From the IMG/VR virus record IMGVR_UViG_3300044718_000101, positions 1 to 57,137 of that record: 57,137 bases of DNA. One strand, 5' to 3'. Source of the stretch: a virus. The position numbers and the translations under genes are program-made. This document shows positions 46,071 through 57,137 of this stretch, in pieces. The notes beneath the pieces are model-generated. The model saw nothing but the letters and a program-made list of their open reading frames with translations. It was not told the origin of the DNA and searched no databases. How positions within the stretch are numbered: the first letter of the stretch is position 1; each line of letters begins with the position of its first letter.

Positions 46071-48791
46071 TTGACCCAACCGGCACCAGCAATGAAGGAC
46101 CTCCCAGCTGCGGGGGTCTACGCGTCAGCCGAACTCGCCAGCTATCGAAAGTTCTTGCAGGACAAGGTACAGGTAGCCCCGTCCTTCGGCGTAGAATGCG
46201 ACCTGTCAGACGTCAACCCCCTCATGCGGCCGCATGCGGCCGCACTGTCGGTTTGGTCGACCAGGGGCGGTCGGCGTGGCATCTTCCCGTCTTTCGGACT
46301 TCACAAAACCACGATCCAGCTAGAAACCGTGCGGATCACGCTCGACAAGACTGAGCAGCCGAACGGGCTTATAATCCTTCCCCTCGGCGTCCGGCAAGAG
46401 TTTATTCGTGACGCCCACATGCTCCGCACCGGTGACAACCCATTCATCACCGATCAGCAGCGCGAGTGTCACGAGGAATGGACCGCCGGAAGGCCGGACC
46501 GAACCCCGGCGCCACGCTTTATCAGAACCACCGCCGAGATTGATGAGCCCGGTATCTACCTAACCAACTATGAATCGGTCCGGCTACACAAGATCGATAT
46601 CGGAAGGTTCGCCGCCGTTAGTCTAGATGAAGGAGATATCCTTCGCGGCTGCTTCTCAGGCTCCAAAACCTACGGGGAGTTTAAGGACCTCTTTGAAGGG
46701 ACCAGCATTCACCGCTGGGTAGCAACCGCAACCCCGAGCCCTCAAGAATATCACGAGCTGCTGGTCTACGCCCAGTTCCTTGGCATCATGGACATCGGCG
46801 AAGCGCGGACCCGCTTCTTCCAGCGTAACAGTCAGAAAGCGCACAGCCTCACGCTTCTACCGCATATGGAGGAAGAGTTCTGGATTTGGGTCAACTCATG
46901 GGCCGCGTTCGTGCTCAGGCCTTCAAACCTCGGCTTTTCCGACGATGGTTATATCCTTCCCGATTTGGAAGTCCACTGGCACGAGGTTCCAACCGATCAT
47001 ACCACCGCGGTAGCGAACGAGCGCGGACAAGGCAAGTTGATCAAGGACGTAACCGTCGGCGTCACCAGTGCTGCAAAGGAAAAGCAATCATCCCTAGATA
47101 CGCGCCTCCAAAAGCTGCTGGAGCTTCGAGAACTGGATCCGGATGCACACCGCATCATTTATCACGATCTCGAAAACGAAAGACGAGCCCTTGAGAAATC
47201 AATACCGGGTCTTGCCACCATTTACGGGAGTCAAGACCTTGACGACCGCGAAAAGATCAGTATCGACTTTTCCAATGGCGAAGTAAGCGAACTCGGCGGA
47301 AAGCCTAGCATGGTGGGCGCCGGCTGTAACTATCAAAGGTTCTGCCATTGGGCCATATTCATGGGGGTCGGATTCAAGTTCCGCGACTTCTTCCAGGCCA
47401 TCCACCGCATCCAACGCTTCGGCCAACCCCATCGATGTCGAATCGACATCATCTTTACCGAGGCCGAAGTCTCGATCAAAGAAGAACTCGAAAGGCGTTG
47501 GGCACAGCACACCACCATGGTTGAGCGCATGGCCGGCATTATCGAGCAGTACGGCCTAGATGGCGAAGGAATGCTCGAGCGGCTAACTCAGTCCATAGGA
47601 GTTGAGCGCGAAGAGTGGATCGGCGAGTTTGGCCACCTCGTTTACAACGACACTATCGAAGAAACGATGTCGATGGAAGACGACTCAGTGGACCTCATCG
47701 CCGGTTCCCCTCCATTCTCGAATCAATATCGATACTCGGCCAGCTATAACGACCTAGGCCACAACCCAAACATCAAGCTCTTTTTCGAGCAGCTTGGATA
47801 TCTCACCCGCCATTCGCTCCGCGTCCTTAAACCCGGCCGCTTCATGGCGATCCATATAAAGGACCGAATCCGCCACGGCAACATGACCGGCCTCTCATTC
47901 CCGACAATCGATCCGTTCCACTGCTACTACCTCGAACACGCCAAAGAGTGCGGATTCGAATATTGCGGCATGGTCACTATTGGGACCGACGTTGTTAGAG
48001 AGAACAATCAAACCTACCGGCTCAGCTACTCAAAGATGCTGAAGGACTCGACCACAACCGCGGTCGGCATGCCCGAATACGCAATGCTTTTCCGCAAGCC
48101 ACAAACTGATCTCAGCCGTGGCTTTGCCGATGAAAGGGTTAGGAAGAACGCCGAAGAATATCTCCTTGCCCAATGGCAGATTGACGCAAACGGCGTTTGG
48201 CTATCCAGCGGCGACCGCCTGGCGCTTCCGGAGGAAGCCAAGGGGTTAAGGCGCAAAGATGCTTACCGCCTGTGGAAGAAGTATTGCCTGGCGAACCCCT
48301 ACGACTATGAGAAGCACGTCGCGTTCGCATCGCTCTTGCAGCTAACCAAGACCCCGGGCGGCGGAAGCATCCTCCCCAAAGACTTCGCCCTCTTGCCGGT
48401 CCATGCAAAAAGCCCATGGATTTGGACCGACGTTTTCCGCGCCGGCACCCTTAACTCGGCACTCTCGCAAAAGAGGGTGGAAAAGCATGTCTGCCCCATG
48501 CAGTTCGACATTATCGACCGGCTAATCGAAAAGCTCACCAACCCCGGAGAACTGGTCTTCGATCCCTGGGGCGGAGTCGGCACAACCGTCGTTCGCTCAA
48601 ACAAACTCGGCCGTCGTGGCCGCTCGCACGAACTCAACCACTACTACTGGCGAGAATCCGTCAAGTTCGCCAAAGCCCAGGAAGAAAAGATGCGCGTTCC
48701 ATCGCTATTCGACCTGATCGAACTCGAAGCCCTCGCAGCGCAATCCGACGACTATGAAGCCGACGATGATGCCCTGGAGGAATCCGCCTAA
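46071..48791 (+). CDS. SNF2-like helicase fused to a beta-class DNA methyltransferase
   Basis: 906 aa from TTG 46071. N-terminal half: phage SNF2-type helicase relatives with PSFGLHKTT (74-81, degenerate Walker A, H replacing G), LTNYES, SLDEGDI (DExx box at 186-189), VATATPSP (motif III), LRPSNLGFSDDGYILP and the helicase C-terminal AIHRIQRFGQ. C-terminal half: methyltransferase motif IV AGSPPFSN at about 545 and motif I DPWGGVGTT at about 831-839, a beta-class order giving N4-cytosine or N6-adenine. The fusion suggests translocation-coupled modification. Confidence 0.8.
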   Translation: MTQPAPAMKDLPAAGVYASAELASYRKFLQDKVQVAPSFGVECDLSDVNPLMRPHAAALSVWSTRGGRRGIFPSFGLHKTTIQLETVRITLDKTEQPNGLIILPLGVRQEFIRDAHMLRTGDNPFITDQQRECHEEWTAGRPDRTPAPRFIRTTAEIDEPGIYLTNYESVRLHKIDIGRFAAVSLDEGDILRGCFSGSKTYGEFKDLFEGTSIHRWVATATPSPQEYHELLVYAQFLGIMDIGEARTRFFQRNSQKAHSLTLLPHMEEEFWIWVNSWAAFVLRPSNLGFSDDGYILPDLEVHWHEVPTDHTTAVANERGQGKLIKDVTVGVTSAAKEKQSSLDTRLQKLLELRELDPDAHRIIYHDLENERRALEKSIPGLATIYGSQDLDDREKISIDFSNGEVSELGGKPSMVGAGCNYQRFCHWAIFMGVGFKFRDFFQAIHRIQRFGQPHRCRIDIIFTEAEVSIKEELERRWAQHTTMVERMAGIIEQYGLDGEGMLERLTQSIGVEREEWIGEFGHLVYNDTIEETMSMEDDSVDLIAGSPPFSNQYRYSASYNDLGHNPNIKLFFEQLGYLTRHSLRVLKPGRFMAIHIKDRIRHGNMTGLSFPTIDPFHCYYLEHAKECGFEYCGMVTIGTDVVRENNQTYRLSYSKMLKDSTTTAVGMPEYAMLFRKPQTDLSRGFADERVRKNAEEYLLAQWQIDANGVWLSSGDRLALPEEAKGLRRKDAYRLWKKYCLANPYDYEKHVAFASLLQLTKTPGGGSILPKDFALLPVHAKSPWIWTDVFRAGTLNSALSQKRVEKHVCPMQFDIIDRLIEKLTNPGELVFDPWGGVGTTVVRSNKLGRRGRSHELNHYYWRESVKFAKAQEEKMRVPSLFDLIELEALAAQSDDYEADDDALEESA

Positions 48792-49573
48792 TGCCCCCAA
48801 AACTAGAAACCGGCTACGCCTTGTCGACCGGCGAAATAATCTACGTCGACCTATTCTGCGGAGCGGGATGCTCGTCGGAAGCAGCTCGCAGGGCGGCAAA
48901 GTCGTTAGGCAAACGCGTTCGATGTATAGCCTGTAACCATTGGCAGGTAGCCGTCAACTCGCACGCCGCCAACCACCCAGACGCCAAGCACTATTGCAAG
49001 GCAGTCCAAAAGGTTGACCCCAGGGAAGCAGTCCCGGGCGGCAAAGCCGACCTTCTAATCGCCGCTCCGCCATGCACCCACTTTTCAAGAGCAGCCGGCG
49101 GAAGACCGAAGAACGATCAGATGCGCTCCAACCCTCGCGAGGTCCTGCGATGGCTCGATCAAATCGAAATCCCCCGCCTATGGCTGGAGAATGTCCCCGA
49201 CTTCCTGACATGGGGGCCGCTGGACGATAAAGGCAAAACCATCAAAGAGCGAAAGGGCGAATACTTCCTCAACTTCATCAAGCTGCTCCAGCGACGGGGC
49301 TATCAAGTCGAGTGGCGAACCGTTTGCGCTGCAGACTTCGGCGATCCCACAACGCGTGACCCGCTTCTACCTCCAGGCCCGCAACGACGGCAAAGAGATC
49401 ATCTGGCCCGACCCCACCCACTGCAAAAGGAAGAAGCTCGAAAAGACAAAGACCTTCTACCCGCACGTTTTGCCATGGGCGCCGGCGCGTGGCTGCATCG
49501 ATTTCGGCATACCAAGCAAATCAATCTTCCGCCGCAAAAAGGCGCTAGCCGAGAAGACACTGATCAGAACTGA
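48791..49573 (+). pseudogene. Cytosine-5 DNA methyltransferase, N-terminal fragment (frameshifted)
   Basis: 260-aa frame of which 1-189 are genuine. Motif I VDLFCGAGCSSEA (19-31), IV APPCTHFS with the catalytic Cys, VI WLENVPDFL, VIII AADFGDPTTR. After R189 (49355-49357) the sequence degenerates into a Pro/Arg-rich shadow until 49573. Skipping one base (G49358) continues into the next frame as TRFYLQARNDG, exactly what the family predicts. So this and the next feature are one ~709-aa enzyme split by a single-base insertion. Confidence 0.8.
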
Positions 49574-50921
49574 GCAAGGAATCCTGAAGCACGTCTCAGT
49601 CTTCAAAGAGGTATTCCTCGCCATGGTCCGGCACGAAATGCACGTCCTGACCGCCGCCGTCGAAGAAGCGCAGCACTATCCATTCCTGGTCATCTTAAGA
49701 AACCACGCGGATTCACAGTCGATCGATGATCCAATGCCGACCATAACGGCCAGCGGAACCCACGTAGGGCTAGGTGAAGCATTCCTGATTCCGAATCCGC
49801 TGCTCATCAAATACCACGGAGGAACGGGCACTAAAGCCAATCGTTCGCAGTCGATCGATGATCCGCTCGCCACAATCGATACGGCTAACCGCTTCGCAAT
49901 CGTAGAGCCCTCGATCATCAATATGAAGGGCCAAAGCACCGCCTCCTCAGTCGATGAACCAGCGCCAACCCAATGCACCAATGGGCACCTCTATCTAGCC
50001 GAAGCAAGCTACATCCTGCCGCCAAGAAAGTTCGACCGCATGGACGTGGATGACCTCAGCGAGCCGCTGAGAACGATCGATGCGTCGACCGGGCACAACT
50101 TCGCCCTAATCGAACCGTTCCTAGTTCAGAAGTTCGGAGAGCGAGCGGGCCAAGTGCCCCGCGTGATCTCAATAGGCGAACCCATGCCAACGGTAACAAC
50201 GGTAGGCGCTGGAATGCTAGTAGAGCCGTTCGCGGTCGATATGGCCCACGGGCAAGATCCAAACCAGACCAAGGCAGCAAGCGCAGAAAGGCGCGTTCAG
50301 TCGTTAGATGAACCCCTAGGCACCATCACCGCTAATCCCGGTAACGCCGTTGCTGAGTGCATCACGAAGGAAGCCTTTCTAGTCGACCGTGGCCGCGGCC
50401 ACAAAGAAGGCGAGTCCGGAGCGGCCCGCGTTCACTCGATAGACGAACCGCTCAACACCCTTACCGCGGCAAGAGAGAAAAGCGCGGCCGAGTGCGTCAT
50501 TCAGTACAACGGAACATCGCTTTCCAAAGATATCGATGAACCGCTTCCGACGATCCCCACAAAAGACCGGTTTGCCCTAGTCCAGGTCTTCATCAAAGAA
50601 GCCGATGGCACCATGGCCAGCCACGAATACCCCTGGGCGCTGGTGGACGATGAAGGCAGTATCCGCTATTTCCTGGATGTCCGGCTAAGAATGCTAAAGC
50701 CGCGCGAGCTCCAAGCCGCGCATAGCCTCAAAGACTACATCTTCACCGGCAACGTGTCAGACCAGATCAAGCAGATCGGCAACGGCATCGCACGCTGGAC
50801 CGTGCAGTCCCAAATCACCGCCATGTTCTGGGAAGGAACCCGCGAAGCGCTTAATGTCTTCCTGCTTGATCAGTTCCTAACCGAAACCAACCCCACGCCG
50901 CCAAAGGAGTGTGTCGCCTAG
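49356..50921 (+). CDS. Cytosine-5 DNA methyltransferase, C-terminal fragment with repeat target-recognition region
   Basis: 521 aa if started at GTG 49356; the natural continuation of the upstream fragment. Residues 120-430 hold eight imperfect repeats of ~35 residues (S-I-D-D/E-P-x-x-T-I...A-L-V-E-P-F), for example QSIDDPLATID and HSIDEPLNTLT. The end has motifs IX-X: RMLKPRELQAAHSLKD and QIGNGIA. The repeats probably form the recognition domain. Alone it lacks the catalytic Cys. Confidence 0.8.
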   Translation: MTRFYLQARNDGKEIIWPDPTHCKRKKLEKTKTFYPHVLPWAPARGCIDFGIPSKSIFRRKKALAEKTLIRTEQGILKHVSVFKEVFLAMVRHEMHVLTAAVEEAQHYPFLVILRNHADSQSIDDPMPTITASGTHVGLGEAFLIPNPLLIKYHGGTGTKANRSQSIDDPLATIDTANRFAIVEPSIINMKGQSTASSVDEPAPTQCTNGHLYLAEASYILPPRKFDRMDVDDLSEPLRTIDASTGHNFALIEPFLVQKFGERAGQVPRVISIGEPMPTVTTVGAGMLVEPFAVDMAHGQDPNQTKAASAERRVQSLDEPLGTITANPGNAVAECITKEAFLVDRGRGHKEGESGAARVHSIDEPLNTLTAAREKSAAECVIQYNGTSLSKDIDEPLPTIPTKDRFALVQVFIKEADGTMASHEYPWALVDDEGSIRYFLDVRLRMLKPRELQAAHSLKDYIFTGNVSDQIKQIGNGIARWTVQSQITAMFWEGTREALNVFLLDQFLTETNPTPPKECVA

Positions 50922-54149: not shown

Positions 54150-54506
54150 ATGCAATCCAGGCGCTACACCGATATGGAGCTACTAGCCAAAGCAGTCCTA
54201 GAACTGGCAGTATCGCAGCGACTTCCCGCGGCAACCTCTTTGAGCAGGCAGGACGCCATAAGACATATCGGCTGCTCAGAGCGTGCCTTCAAACATTACG
54301 AAGCAAAGGGCTATATTAAAGAGCTTGAGGGCGGCATATTCTCGGTCGAGCATTTGGACGGGCTAGTCGAGAAACTGAAAAAAGACTCTGAAAAGGTGAT
54401 AGATTTAACAAATGGCCAGATGGCACAAAGCGAGCAGCAGGTACATAGCGGAAAAACGAATCACACTCCCAAACGGGGAGAAGTTGCGTCCGTGCTGCTA
54501 CGGTGA
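54150..54506 (+). CDS. HTH protein next to integrase, excisionase candidate
   Basis: 118 aa. HTH-like DAIRHIGCSERAFKHYEAKG (about 35-54) with a wing (YIKELEGGIFSVEHLD) then a charged helix; the last ~30 residues overlap the integrase frame. MerR-like small HTHs immediately upstream of integrase are frequently recombination directionality factors. Inferred only. Confidence 0.5.
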   Translation: MQSRRYTDMELLAKAVLELAVSQRLPAATSLSRQDAIRHIGCSERAFKHYEAKGYIKELEGGIFSVEHLDGLVEKLKKDSEKVIDLTNGQMAQSEQQVHSGKTNHTPKRGEVASVLLR

Positions 54507-55695
54507 AACCGCAGAAGAAGCCGACCAGCTTCTAGCCGATCACATCGAATCAATCTTCAGGCCTTTTAACGAATACGCCTTCGGAAGCTACGCCGCCCGG
54601 GCCTACATCCCGCTGCATGAAAACGACAGTTTCAAGAACCGAGAGCAAATCGCATGGGCCCTCGACACCCATATCCTTCCCGACTGGGGTTCACGCGATA
54701 TCAGGACCATCGAACGGACCGAGCTCCAACGCTGGGTTAATCGCAAACTAGACGCCGGACGTATCGGCGGAGGCACCCTCTCAAAAGGGAGTGTCACGCA
54801 CCTCAGAAAGGTGATAAGCGCCATCATGGATCTCGCTGAAGAAGATGGCATCATCGACAAAAACCCGGTCCGCAAAGTCAAGGTCATCACCCCCAAGCAA
54901 ACATCATCCCTAATCGCTGGGCCTGTTGCACAAAAGGAAGTCACCTACACGTCGGAGCAGCTTGTCAGGTACCTCGACTTCGCGCTAAGGCAAGAAAAGA
55001 TGATGGGGCTTATGATGGCGCCTATTATCTTCATGGAAGGATGGTGCGGACTTCGAAGGGGGGAAGCCCTAGGAACAAGAAGGCCGTTCATCACCAAAGA
55101 CAACGTGATTCAAGTCTTCTGGCAAGCTCAAAAACAAAAGCGGCCGTGGCCAGAAAAGAAACCGATCGGAAAGCGAAAGAAGAAACCCATCTGGGAATAC
55201 TTCATCGATATTATCGAGGTCAAGAGCACTGCAGGCCGGCGAACGATCCCACTCCCAGAGATCGGGGCAAGGATGCTAAGAGCCGTCGACTGGTGGGCGG
55301 CAAACGTAGAGTCTGACTCGGTGCTATTCTGCCCAAACTCCACCGGAGGCCTCCAAGACCCAGACAACGTAAACCGCGCACTGGAATCGCTAACGCAGCG
55401 CTATAACGACTCGCTAGAGTTCAACAACTCCCTTAGCGAAGCCGAGAGGGAAGAACTAAGGCTCCCAAAGATCGGAACGCACGGCCTAAGACGCAGTTTC
55501 GCCACCAACCTCGCCGAACTGGGATGCCCCGAAGAATTCCGGAATGCGCTACTTGGCCACGGCAAAAAGAACATGGCCCAGGAATACAACAAGATCCGCG
55601 AACTAACAAAGCTCAAATGGCTGGAAGCGCTTCACGAACCATTGAAGGTGCTTGTGGCAAGCGACTCGAAACCAAACGTCGCGAAAGCCGAGTAG
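54412..55695 (+). CDS. int: Tyrosine-recombinase integrase
   Basis: 427 aa. N-terminal arm-binding part, core-binding region at about 60-150, catalytic domain from about 185. Catalytic set: R in GLRRGEAL, HGLR in THGLRRSFAT, LGHGKKN and the nucleophile in AQEYNK. A charged insertion KKPIGKRKKK lies between the first Arg and the HxxR box. Ends 92 bp from the 3' end of tRNA-Ala. Integrates and, with a directionality factor, excises the prophage. Confidence 0.92.
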   Translation: MARWHKASSRYIAEKRITLPNGEKLRPCCYGETAEEADQLLADHIESIFRPFNEYAFGSYAARAYIPLHENDSFKNREQIAWALDTHILPDWGSRDIRTIERTELQRWVNRKLDAGRIGGGTLSKGSVTHLRKVISAIMDLAEEDGIIDKNPVRKVKVITPKQTSSLIAGPVAQKEVTYTSEQLVRYLDFALRQEKMMGLMMAPIIFMEGWCGLRRGEALGTRRPFITKDNVIQVFWQAQKQKRPWPEKKPIGKRKKKPIWEYFIDIIEVKSTAGRRTIPLPEIGARMLRAVDWWAANVESDSVLFCPNSTGGLQDPDNVNRALESLTQRYNDSLEFNNSLSEAEREELRLPKIGTHGLRRSFATNLAELGCPEEFRNALLGHGKKNMAQEYNKIRELTKLKWLEALHEPLKVLVASDSKPNVAKAE

Positions 55696-55782: not shown

Positions 55783-55805
55783 AAAGTGGTGGAGACAACG
55801 GGGCT
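55783..55805. other. Likely attachment-site core at the tRNA-Ala 3' end
   Basis: The 3' end of the tRNA points toward the integrase, the usual geometry for tRNA-targeting prophages. The reciprocal copy was not found in this window, so core limits are a guess. Confidence 0.45.
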
Positions 55806-55862
55806 CGAACCCGTGACCTCCTGCATGCCATGCAGGCGCTCTCCCAGCTGAGCTATATCCCC
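55787..55862 (-). tRNA. tRNA-Ala(GGC)
   Basis: 76 nt including encoded CCA. Acceptor GGGGATA, D-arm GCTCAGCTGGGAGAGC, anticodon stem CCTGC/GCAGG with loop ATGGCAT (anticodon GGC), T-arm GGGTTCGAGCCCC. A full cloverleaf, so the gene stays functional after integration. Confidence 0.95.
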
Positions 55863-55877
55863 ACTGATCGCGAGGTA

Positions 55878-56147
55878 ATTATACACGTAGCCATCGCTTA
55901 TTTCCTTTATGTCTTGCGAAGCGAGAAAACAGGTCGCTTTTACGTGGGTTCGACGGCGAACCTAACAGACAGGCTCTTGAGACACAACTCTGGCCGAAGC
56001 CTATCAACAAAGGGCGGGATTCCATGGACGCTTTGCTACGAAGAGGAATATGCGACGCGCTCCGAAGCCGTCGTCCGTGAGCTCGAGATCAAGAAATGGA
56101 AAAGCTCAAAGATGATTGAGGACCTTTCTGGGAGAGCGTCCCGATGA
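55878..56147 (+). CDS. GIY-YIG endonuclease-like protein diverging from tRNA-Ala
   Basis: About 89 aa if started at ATT 55878; the only upstream ATG (55830) lies in the antisense of the tRNA. YFLYVLRSEKTGRFYVGST holds the GIY (YVL) and YIG (YVG) elements, then LTDRLLRHN (Arg) and a catalytic Glu in the RSEAVVRELEIKKWKS helix, matching small YhbQ-like nucleases. Its last codons (SGRASR) are encoded by a D-arm-like sequence, part of a tRNA-like remnant. Host-flank gene, not phage. Confidence 0.7.
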   Translation: MIHVAIAYFLYVLRSEKTGRFYVGSTANLTDRLLRHNSGRSLSTKGGIPWTLCYEEEYATRSEAVVRELEIKKWKSSKMIEDLSGRASR

Positions 56148-56207
56148 ATCGGGAAGGTCACGGGGCAGTTTATCCCGACTTGTCGGGAAGCCCCGTTGTC
56201 TCCACCA
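56128..56207 (+). repeat. tRNA-Ala-like remnant, copy 1
   Basis: CTGGGAGAGCG at 56128-56138 equals the tRNA D-arm. A TCCCGATGAATCGGGA hairpin stands where the anticodon arm would be, then AGGTCACGGG as in the tRNA, a 24-nt insert with its own hairpin in the T-arm, and a 23-nt exact match to the tRNA 3' end (56189-56211 against 55783-55805, inverted). Confidence 0.75.
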
Positions 56208-56212
56208 CTTTT

Positions 56213-56290
56213 TGAGAAACGTCCCGGTGATTCGGGAAGGTCAGGGGGCAGCTTGTGCCGATTTATCAGGGAGCCCGATTGTCTCCACCA
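56213..56290 (+). repeat. tRNA-Ala-like remnant, copy 2 (degenerate)
   Basis: Tandem to copy 1: TGAGAAACGTCCCGGTGA, TTCGGGAAGGTCAGGGGGC, and TTGTCTCCACCACT at the end, with more mismatches. A further decayed start (CGAGAGCATCACCGAGG) follows. Confidence 0.65.
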
Positions 56291-56303
56291 CTATTCGAGA
56301 GCA

Positions 56304-57137
56304 TCACCGAGGTGGCTGTAGCGACAGCCTTGGAATCTTAACCCAAGTGTAAGGTCGGGTCTGGAGTTCTATACGCGACAGATTCCTTCCTGATGTGAAA
56401 AGCCCGAGGGTAGAGCATCCATCTCCATACGAGTTCCAGAGCTTTCCATCCTTGTCGTAGCCCACGAAACGAAAGGCTTCACGCTCGGTCATGTCCAAAA
56501 GCCGCTTCGGGATAGTGACTCGGAATTGACCGTATCTGATCTCAGCGGTAGGTTCAGAATCAGTCAAAACGTAGTGACTCTTTGTTGCCTGGGCCTTATA
56601 AACGCAACGCGCCTGCCAGGGGCCTTGCGAGTAACCGAAATATAAGTCCGCAAACCGGACAGTAGGTGCCGTCCTCGCCATCCCTGTCACAAGGGTCGAA
56701 TAGGTCCTGTTGTTTTCATTTTCGTTGATCTCATCGGAGAGGCCGCTGTTTTCCAGCATTGGAATCTCCGCGAAGCGGACCGTCTCGCTCGGATATGACT
56801 CCATCTTGTAGAACTGCCGGTATCGGAAGCCATCCACCTGGATACTGAACTCGCGGTTCGCGTTACCATGGAAACGGCCTTGGTCAACTCTTGACTTGTG
56901 GGTTCGCTTTCCATTTGCCGTCCAAGTACGGCCAGTCTTAACATCTTCAACCAGCACCGTAAGGACTAACCCGTTCCCGATCGAACTATGCAAACCGGAT
57001 ACAGTTAGGCTGGACTGTGGCACAGGCATGAGAGGGTGCAACGCCTGCCCTCGCGCTACGGCTAACACAGTTGCAAACAGCCCTCCAACTGCGATTAAGG
57101 CTCTGGCCTGAATCTCGATCCCTAGGGGTCTACTCAT
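56304..57137 (-). CDS. Exported host protein of unknown function
   Basis: 277 aa, ATG at the last base so upstream context is unseen. Hydrophobic N-terminal segment (ALIAVGGLFATVLAVARGQA) suggests a signal peptide. Remainder is beta-rich (NGLVLTVLVEDVKTG; RYGQFRVTIPKRLLD). No family recognised. Convergent with the GIY-YIG gene across the tRNA-like remnants. Confidence 0.6.
   Translation of the reverse strand: MSRPLGIEIQARALIAVGGLFATVLAVARGQALHPLMPVPQSSLTVSGLHSSIGNGLVLTVLVEDVKTGRTWTANGKRTHKSRVDQGRFHGNANREFSIQVDGFRYRQFYKMESYPSETVRFAEIPMLENSGLSDEINENENNRTYSTLVTGMARTAPTVRFADLYFGYSQGPWQARCVYKAQATKSHYVLTDSEPTAEIRYGQFRVTIPKRLLDMTEREAFRFVGYDKDGKLWNSYGDGCSTLGLFTSGRNLSRIELQTRPYTWVKIPRLSLQPPR

Follow-up and report, generated by a model that had tools for sequence, protein, structure and literature searches.

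The tRNA-Ala locus and its GIY-YIG gene

The window, as the whole stretch of DNA analyzed here is called, is the IMG/VR virus record IMGVR_UViG_3300044718_000101 with a length of 57,137 nt. It contains an intact tRNA-Ala(GGC) gene on the minus strand (55787–55862), which is recognized by ARAGORN and by the Rfam model RF00005 with 62.9 bits. A phage tyrosine integrase gene (54412–55695, plus strand; PF00589, E 2.6e-8), which had escaped the preliminary description of this DNA, has its end at a distance of 90 nt from the tRNA 3' end. As the integrase gene adjoins this 3' end, the tRNA-Ala gene is probably the attachment site of the prophage, and the right part of the window is the probable prophage right end, with host DNA at approximately 55787–57137. 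For the 277-aa flanking protein, a comparison with 20 genomes aimed at the host of the window gave no credible counterpart. Towards the left prophage end, a translation (545–1558) judged by eye resembles an acyltransferase-like membrane protein, possibly encoded by a lysogenic-conversion gene, and at 46071–50921 a methyltransferase/helicase-like protein is followed by two overlapping ORFs that, again by eye, resemble a split cytosine methyltransferase.

Beside the tRNA, the plus strand carries a free-standing ORF for a GIY-YIG endonuclease of about 84 residues (55893–56147; PF01541, E 8e-14), and no Rfam intron is found within the window. The start of this ORF is unusual. The expected start position, 55893, is an ATC in the window and an ATG in a relative (L004/L293), and the only in-frame ATG, GTG or TTG between the tRNA-Ala and the GIY domain is an ATG at 55830 that lies within the antisense tRNA and from which the ORF could alternatively be counted. 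The preliminary description, which let the gene start within or beside the antisense tRNA-Ala, is to be corrected in this respect. A TATAAT -10-like box read from the sequence on the minus strand (55878–55883), beside the ORF start, is assigned to the tRNA-Ala promoter; a complete sigma-70 site was not detected by a scan with the consensus.

The encoded protein possesses all catalytic residues of the family (Tyr, Tyr, Arg, His, Glu), of which Y16, R26, H30 and E62 are invariant among 31 sequences and Y5 is conserved in at least 90% of them. Its AlphaFold2 model reaches a pLDDT of 93.8, and profile and fold comparisons place it nearest to the solved structures of UPF0213 (1zg2, 1ywl) and Slx1, followed by I-TevI and UvrC. 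The ORF stops about six residues past the GIY-YIG domain, without a DNA-binding region beyond the catalytic domain.

The 3' end of the ORF runs into a tRNA-Ala-like sequence, here termed mimic 1 (56128–56208, plus strand), which is oriented opposite to the intact tRNA and encodes the C-terminus of the protein, as had been proposed. Mimic 1 has a fold z of -2.2. Of the D-arm it retains the 3' half (CTGGGAGAGCG, 56128–56138), which is followed by the hairpin TCCCGATGAATCGGGA (56139–56154) that replaces the anticodon arm, has counterparts in relatives, and holds the stop codon of the ORF (56145–56147) in its loop. The variable region and the 5' strand of the T-stem (56155–56165) lead into a T-loop insert (56166–56188) that includes a second hairpin, TCCCGACTTGTCGGGA (56173–56188), and an array in a different genome (L299) has an identical 16-mer in its T-loop. 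The 3' strand of the T-stem, the acceptor strand and CCA complete the mimic (56189–56208), and an exact 23-nt inverted copy of the tRNA-Ala 3' end (55783–55805) spans 56189–56211. This confirms the preliminary description, which had listed the D-arm, the variable region, the 23 exact 3' nucleotides and the hairpins in the anticodon arm and the T-arm. It had also described a degenerate tandem second copy, and this mimic 2 (56220–56300, plus strand) is indeed present as a unit without ORF at a period of 83 nt. The direct repeat comprises 81 nt with 83% identity (56137–56217 and 56220–56300), and the second hairpin is degenerate in mimic 2. Hairpins of the type TCCCGA-N4-TCGGGA are located at 56139–56154 and 56173–56188, and with one mismatch at 56222–56237; three such matches did not occur in any of 100 shuffles of the window (shuffle mean 0.21), and the pattern of the tRNA 3' end occurs three times against 0.24 expected. 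Neither ARAGORN nor Rfam, even at E<=10, recognizes the mimic as a tRNA, and no terminator was found after the window mimics.

One conceivable origin of the repeats is a prophage attachment-site duplication left by the neighboring integrase, the gene of which adjoins the tRNA 3' end, a classic att site. The mimic is, however, inverted, internally altered and tandemly copied, the repeats are one-sided, another att copy is lacking from the window (the left end of which may not reach as far as the other att), and the unit of tRNA, GIY-YIG gene and mimic recurs at many loci in unrelated genomes. We therefore agree with the earlier exclusion of this origin and consider it extremely improbable.

Recurrence of the unit beside bacterial tRNA genes

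Relatives were collected in a first scan of 84,980 species genomes, in which the window protein and three synthetic family-consensus sequences that widened the patterns served as queries and which yielded 80 loci. As these patterns were family-specific, the sampling is non-random with regard to the clade. A broader profile-based sample comprised 148 Bacteroidota genomes and 61 genomes from another phylum; many genomes among the relatives are MAGs. The GIY clade occurs in 91 of the 148 sampled Bacteroidota genomes, and other phyla also carry members. Among viral relatives there were only two matches, both SegA-like proteins of another type without a tRNA; phage records contained no member of the clade, plasmid records one distant match, and viral contigs did not contain the exact mimic pattern.

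At most of the 80 scan loci a tRNA-like sequence directly follows the GIY stop, and at most of them a real tRNA on the same strand lies just upstream. With real tRNAs masked, 75 of 120 clade members had tRNA-like DNA in the 200 nt that follow the ORF, compared with 4 of 212 control windows taken 700–930 nt away and none of 120 shuffles. Of the 111 members that are located away from contig ends, 103 adjoin either a real tRNA or a fragment resembling one. Relatives with the gene but without tRNA similarity at its 3' end, which the preliminary description had named as the finding that would speak against it, were looked for, and these counts leave its proposal standing. The inversion, on the other hand, is not a defining feature: a tRNA within 350 nt is on the same strand in 81 of 111 members and on the opposite strand in a single one (1/111). 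For the low-scoring GIY-YIG families of another phylum, a same-strand tRNA at this distance was present in 5 of 26 cases. The typical order of the unit is an intact tRNA, the terminator of this tRNA, the GIY-YIG ORF and an inactivated copy of the same tRNA. Some related lineages show a mirror layout in which the real tRNA comes last (L174, L255, L292, L294, L296), and at some of these loci the 5' half of the real tRNA codes for the ORF C-terminus. At L174, L255, L248 and L264, the C-terminus of the last GIY ORF overlaps or adjoins an intact tRNA in its 5' half; the tRNAs concerned are Ser, Pro, Arg and Ala.

The number of units varies. Tandem arrays of two to three units occur, with an exact period of 359 nt, and there are arrays that consist of mimics only (L100, L125, L299). 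The conserved Ser-Pro-Arg tRNA locus of Chryseobacterium differs between species, which have a single unit or two, arrays of mimics only, decayed remnants, or no insertion at all. Comparison of the empty locus L127 with the filled locus L126 of the same genus reveals a clean empty site right behind the tRNA terminator; L126 also holds a further insertion past the unit. At L299 (G200:C6:297500-301500), an intact tRNA-Met is preceded on its 5' side by four tRNA-like units of 93 nt, which have hairpins at the acceptor/D junction and in the anticodon loop, and followed on its 3' side by three GIY-mimic units.

The ORF of the clade is under purifying selection, with a median dN/dS of 0.16 in 73 pairs (18 of them non-overlapping) and no pair at or above 1. 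Along a GIY tree of 140 loci, built on 76 columns and with many forks unresolved, the tRNA isotype changes 45 times, in comparison to a mean of 97 and a minimum of 90 when isotypes are shuffled. GIY lineages thus tend to retain their tRNA isotype.

Measured against these relatives, the window copy departs from the usual layout by its opposite-strand tRNA, by the ATC in place of ATG and by the lack of a terminator after the mimics. Its inverted tRNA is an oddity of this copy, given how rare an opposite-strand tRNA is among the relatives. Recombination between the 23-nt inverted repeats was considered as cause of the inversion, but it would not restore the usual layout, since tRNA and GIY-YIG gene are divergent in either orientation. 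The window copy is probably a rearranged, decaying member of the family beside a prophage insertion.

Anatomy of the mimics and the dispersed palindromes

The anatomy was derived from 83 tRNA/mimic pairs covering 20 isoacceptors, in which each mimic was aligned to the tRNA upstream. The direct repeat spans the D-loop, the variable region, the T-arm, the 3' acceptor strand and the terminator, and in some cases it extends as far as the ORF's ATG; only the anticodon arm is swapped for a hairpin. Identity is 94–100% from the T-loop to the 3' end, 59–89% in the D-arm and 35–51% in the 5' acceptor strand; over some 42 nt of terminator it amounts to 56–82%, and further out to 40–58%. The stop of the GIY ORF lies within the D-loop of the mimic or within the hairpin. 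In the relatives a separate terminator, a hairpin plus T-run copied from the terminator of the tRNA itself, follows the mimic. The preliminary view of a small selfish unit around a tRNA sequence is strongly supported, but the mimic does not itself serve as the terminator.

The hairpin in the anticodon arm is usually CCGA/TCGG-cored, and the T-loop is often replaced by a hairpin as well, again recurrently. Variants such as TCCCGA/TCGGGA, CTCCGA/TCGGAG, TTCCGA/TCGGAA, GGCCGA/TCGGCC and TGGCGC/GCGCCA represent compensatory changes, and 86% of the hairpin positions are paired when no complementarity filter is applied, a value that 500 shuffles of the partners did not reach (75% at most). The mimic departs from the tRNA by recurrent replacement of loops with hairpins and not by random decay. 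In a second GIY clade (KSGxGK; L015, L020, L027), the tRNA copies harbor another palindrome, CCTGCC/GGCAGG, which is located within or close to their D- and anticodon loops.

These observations bear on the idea of a passive by-product, in which a tandem tRNA duplication happened to arise beside an ordinary cellular GIY-YIG gene and the spare tRNA decays. tRNA clusters are prone to duplication, and degenerate remnants do exist (L132, L133, L139). The identical anatomy over several phyla and the 20 isoacceptors, the specific hairpin replacement with its compensatory changes, the position of the stop in D-loop or hairpin, the selection on the ORF and the rarity of tRNA neighbors in other GIY-YIG families nevertheless make this explanation highly improbable.

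The mimics could also act as RNA. The target of the GIY-YIG protein would then be the tRNA or the tRNA transcript, and the anticodon-less mimic RNA would be a co-transcribed sponge, comparable to the arrays of type III toxin-antitoxin systems. The match between the isotype of the mimic and that of the adjacent tRNA, the retention of D- and T-arms and the co-oriented arrays with terminators would fit to this. However, the acceptor stem of the mimics has only 3.2 of 7 pairs, where real tRNAs have 6.96 and shifted controls 2.2, and is predicted to be mostly unable to form, which makes a tRNA fold impossible in most loci. In addition, the T-loop hairpins abolish the D–T contact, many mimics have no 5' strand, and the GIY-YIG enzymes of known function have, to our knowledge, DNA as substrate. 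We therefore regard a decoy or toxin-antitoxin function as quite improbable.

A more serious alternative is based on the palindromes themselves. The enzyme could chiefly act on hairpins or single strands and have a cognate palindrome that spreads through the genome, in the manner of the REP/RAYT or Ssn systems. Landing in tRNA copies would be favored, as hairpins are tolerated in the loops of these. Indeed, the same palindrome core is common to the anticodon-arm, T-loop and acceptor/D positions of the mimics, and in some genomes the palindromes disperse to up to 115 copies, compared with 0–5 for a reversed-pattern control. Palindromes also break up GIY ORFs, as at L301 (G153:C44:276900-278900), where each of the tandem ORFs is broken by the same palindrome TCCCGATAGCTATCGGGA, with three copies at a period of 403 nt. 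TCCCGA palindromes are more numerous in genomes with the GIY clade than in those without it (median 11 vs 3, p 5e-9), but this excess is gone after two palindromes are subtracted per GIY copy, so that the dispersed palindromes are not clearly tied to the enzyme. Some Bacteroidota also have palindromes of the TCCCGATAGCTATCGGGA type scattered among their intergenic repeats, where TTCG often precedes them (L101-L119; G005, G006). REP/BIME elements and their RAYT enzymes resemble the present loci in that short palindromes are tied to a small nuclease gene and non-autonomous copies exist. They differ in the enzyme, which is an HUH tyrosine transposase, whereas the protein here is a GIY-YIG nuclease and no HUH/Y1 transposase is present, and they have no tRNA component. 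The Ssn enzymes of Neisseria are site-specific single-strand GIY-YIG nucleases, a small protein with a cognate repeated sequence, for which we know of no tRNA link. As spreading of a palindrome also leaves the duplicated terminator and 3' half unaccounted for, we think that this explanation is rather unlikely.

A tRNA-linked family of putative homing-type elements

The closest precedent is SegB of the T-even phages T4 and T6, a free-standing GIY-YIG homing endonuclease that is encoded beside tRNA-Tyr (PMC13096335). The 3' end of segB shares microhomology with the 5' region of the tRNA, the unit of tRNA and gene undergoes tandem amplification by homologous recombination that depends on uvsX/uvsY, and SegB is enriched near tRNAs of many isotypes (PMC13096335). 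The GIY-YIG gene beside a tRNA, the sequence common to both, the tandem units and the many isotypes are found in the present clade as well. SegB is, however, phage-borne and larger, and no hairpin-bearing tRNA mimics have been reported for it, whereas the clade described here is chromosomal and single-domain, occurs in several bacterial phyla and possesses disabled tRNA copies and mimic-only arrays. Given the SegB precedent, we class the family with the tRNA-linked GIY-YIG homing-type elements, although its members, in which the usual DNA-binding extension is absent and for which we infer cleavage, are not proven homing endonucleases. UPF0213 and Slx1, the closest solved relatives, differ in that their records are silent on tRNA linkage. 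Integrative elements in tRNA genes likewise duplicate the tRNA 3' sequence at one end and leave the tRNA intact; the GIY units differ from these by having no integrase in the unit and by a displaced copy with rebuilt loops. None of the open-access literature searched describes tRNA mimics at GIY-YIG genes, and the arrangement beside many tRNA genes in several bacterial phyla apparently represents an undescribed family of small selfish elements.

We consider it the probable explanation that these loci are widespread, tRNA-linked, homing-endonuclease-like selfish units that presumably act by DNA cleavage, and that the window holds a rearranged and probably decaying copy. This reading is built on the anatomy, the near-identity of tRNA and mimic within a locus, the arrays, the presence/absence pattern, the purifying selection and the isotype fidelity. 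In the proposed mechanism, the GIY-YIG enzyme would nick or break DNA at the tRNA gene or at the hairpin-bearing mimic. It would presumably recognize the hairpins, given that its fold is nearest to structure-selective nucleases of the Slx1 type. Recombination across the approximately 60–90 nt common to tRNA and mimic would then insert, duplicate or delete units, with the mimic serving as homology arm and boundary. Its altered loops would stop it from being a working, and perhaps also a cleavable, tRNA gene. One intact tRNA would remain after every insertion, duplication or deletion, which could explain why the host tolerates the parasite.

Several points speak against the homing-unit model. 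The intact tRNA in an occupied locus keeps any site that the enzyme would cut, which poses a problem of self-immunity. The protein is a single domain of 80–90 residues and lacks the extension by which homing endonucleases usually bind DNA. One-way insertion does not predict the mirror arrangement with the real tRNA downstream, and the window copy has an inverted tRNA and an abnormal start codon. A bolder version of the model, which we put forward tentatively and would sooner doubt than accept, sees the loci as a new class of bacterial mobile element, in which a single-domain GIY-YIG nuclease parasitizes tRNA genes, with one isotype per lineage, the intact tRNA rebuilt, hairpin-scarred tRNA copies left on one or both sides, and non-autonomous mimic-only arrays and dispersed palindromes, REP/RAYT-like but anchored to tRNA.

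If the homing-type explanation is true, many genes annotated as "GIY-YIG nuclease family" in Bacteroidota and other phyla would gain one testable biological role, the odd tRNA-coded C-termini of GIY-YIG proteins would be accounted for, and a chromosomal counterpart to the recently shown tRNA-amplification mechanism of phage SegB would be at hand. The loci supply natural sets of a nuclease, its own tRNA and its own hairpin-bearing mimic, and these sets bear on the question of how a nuclease parasitizes essential genes without host death.
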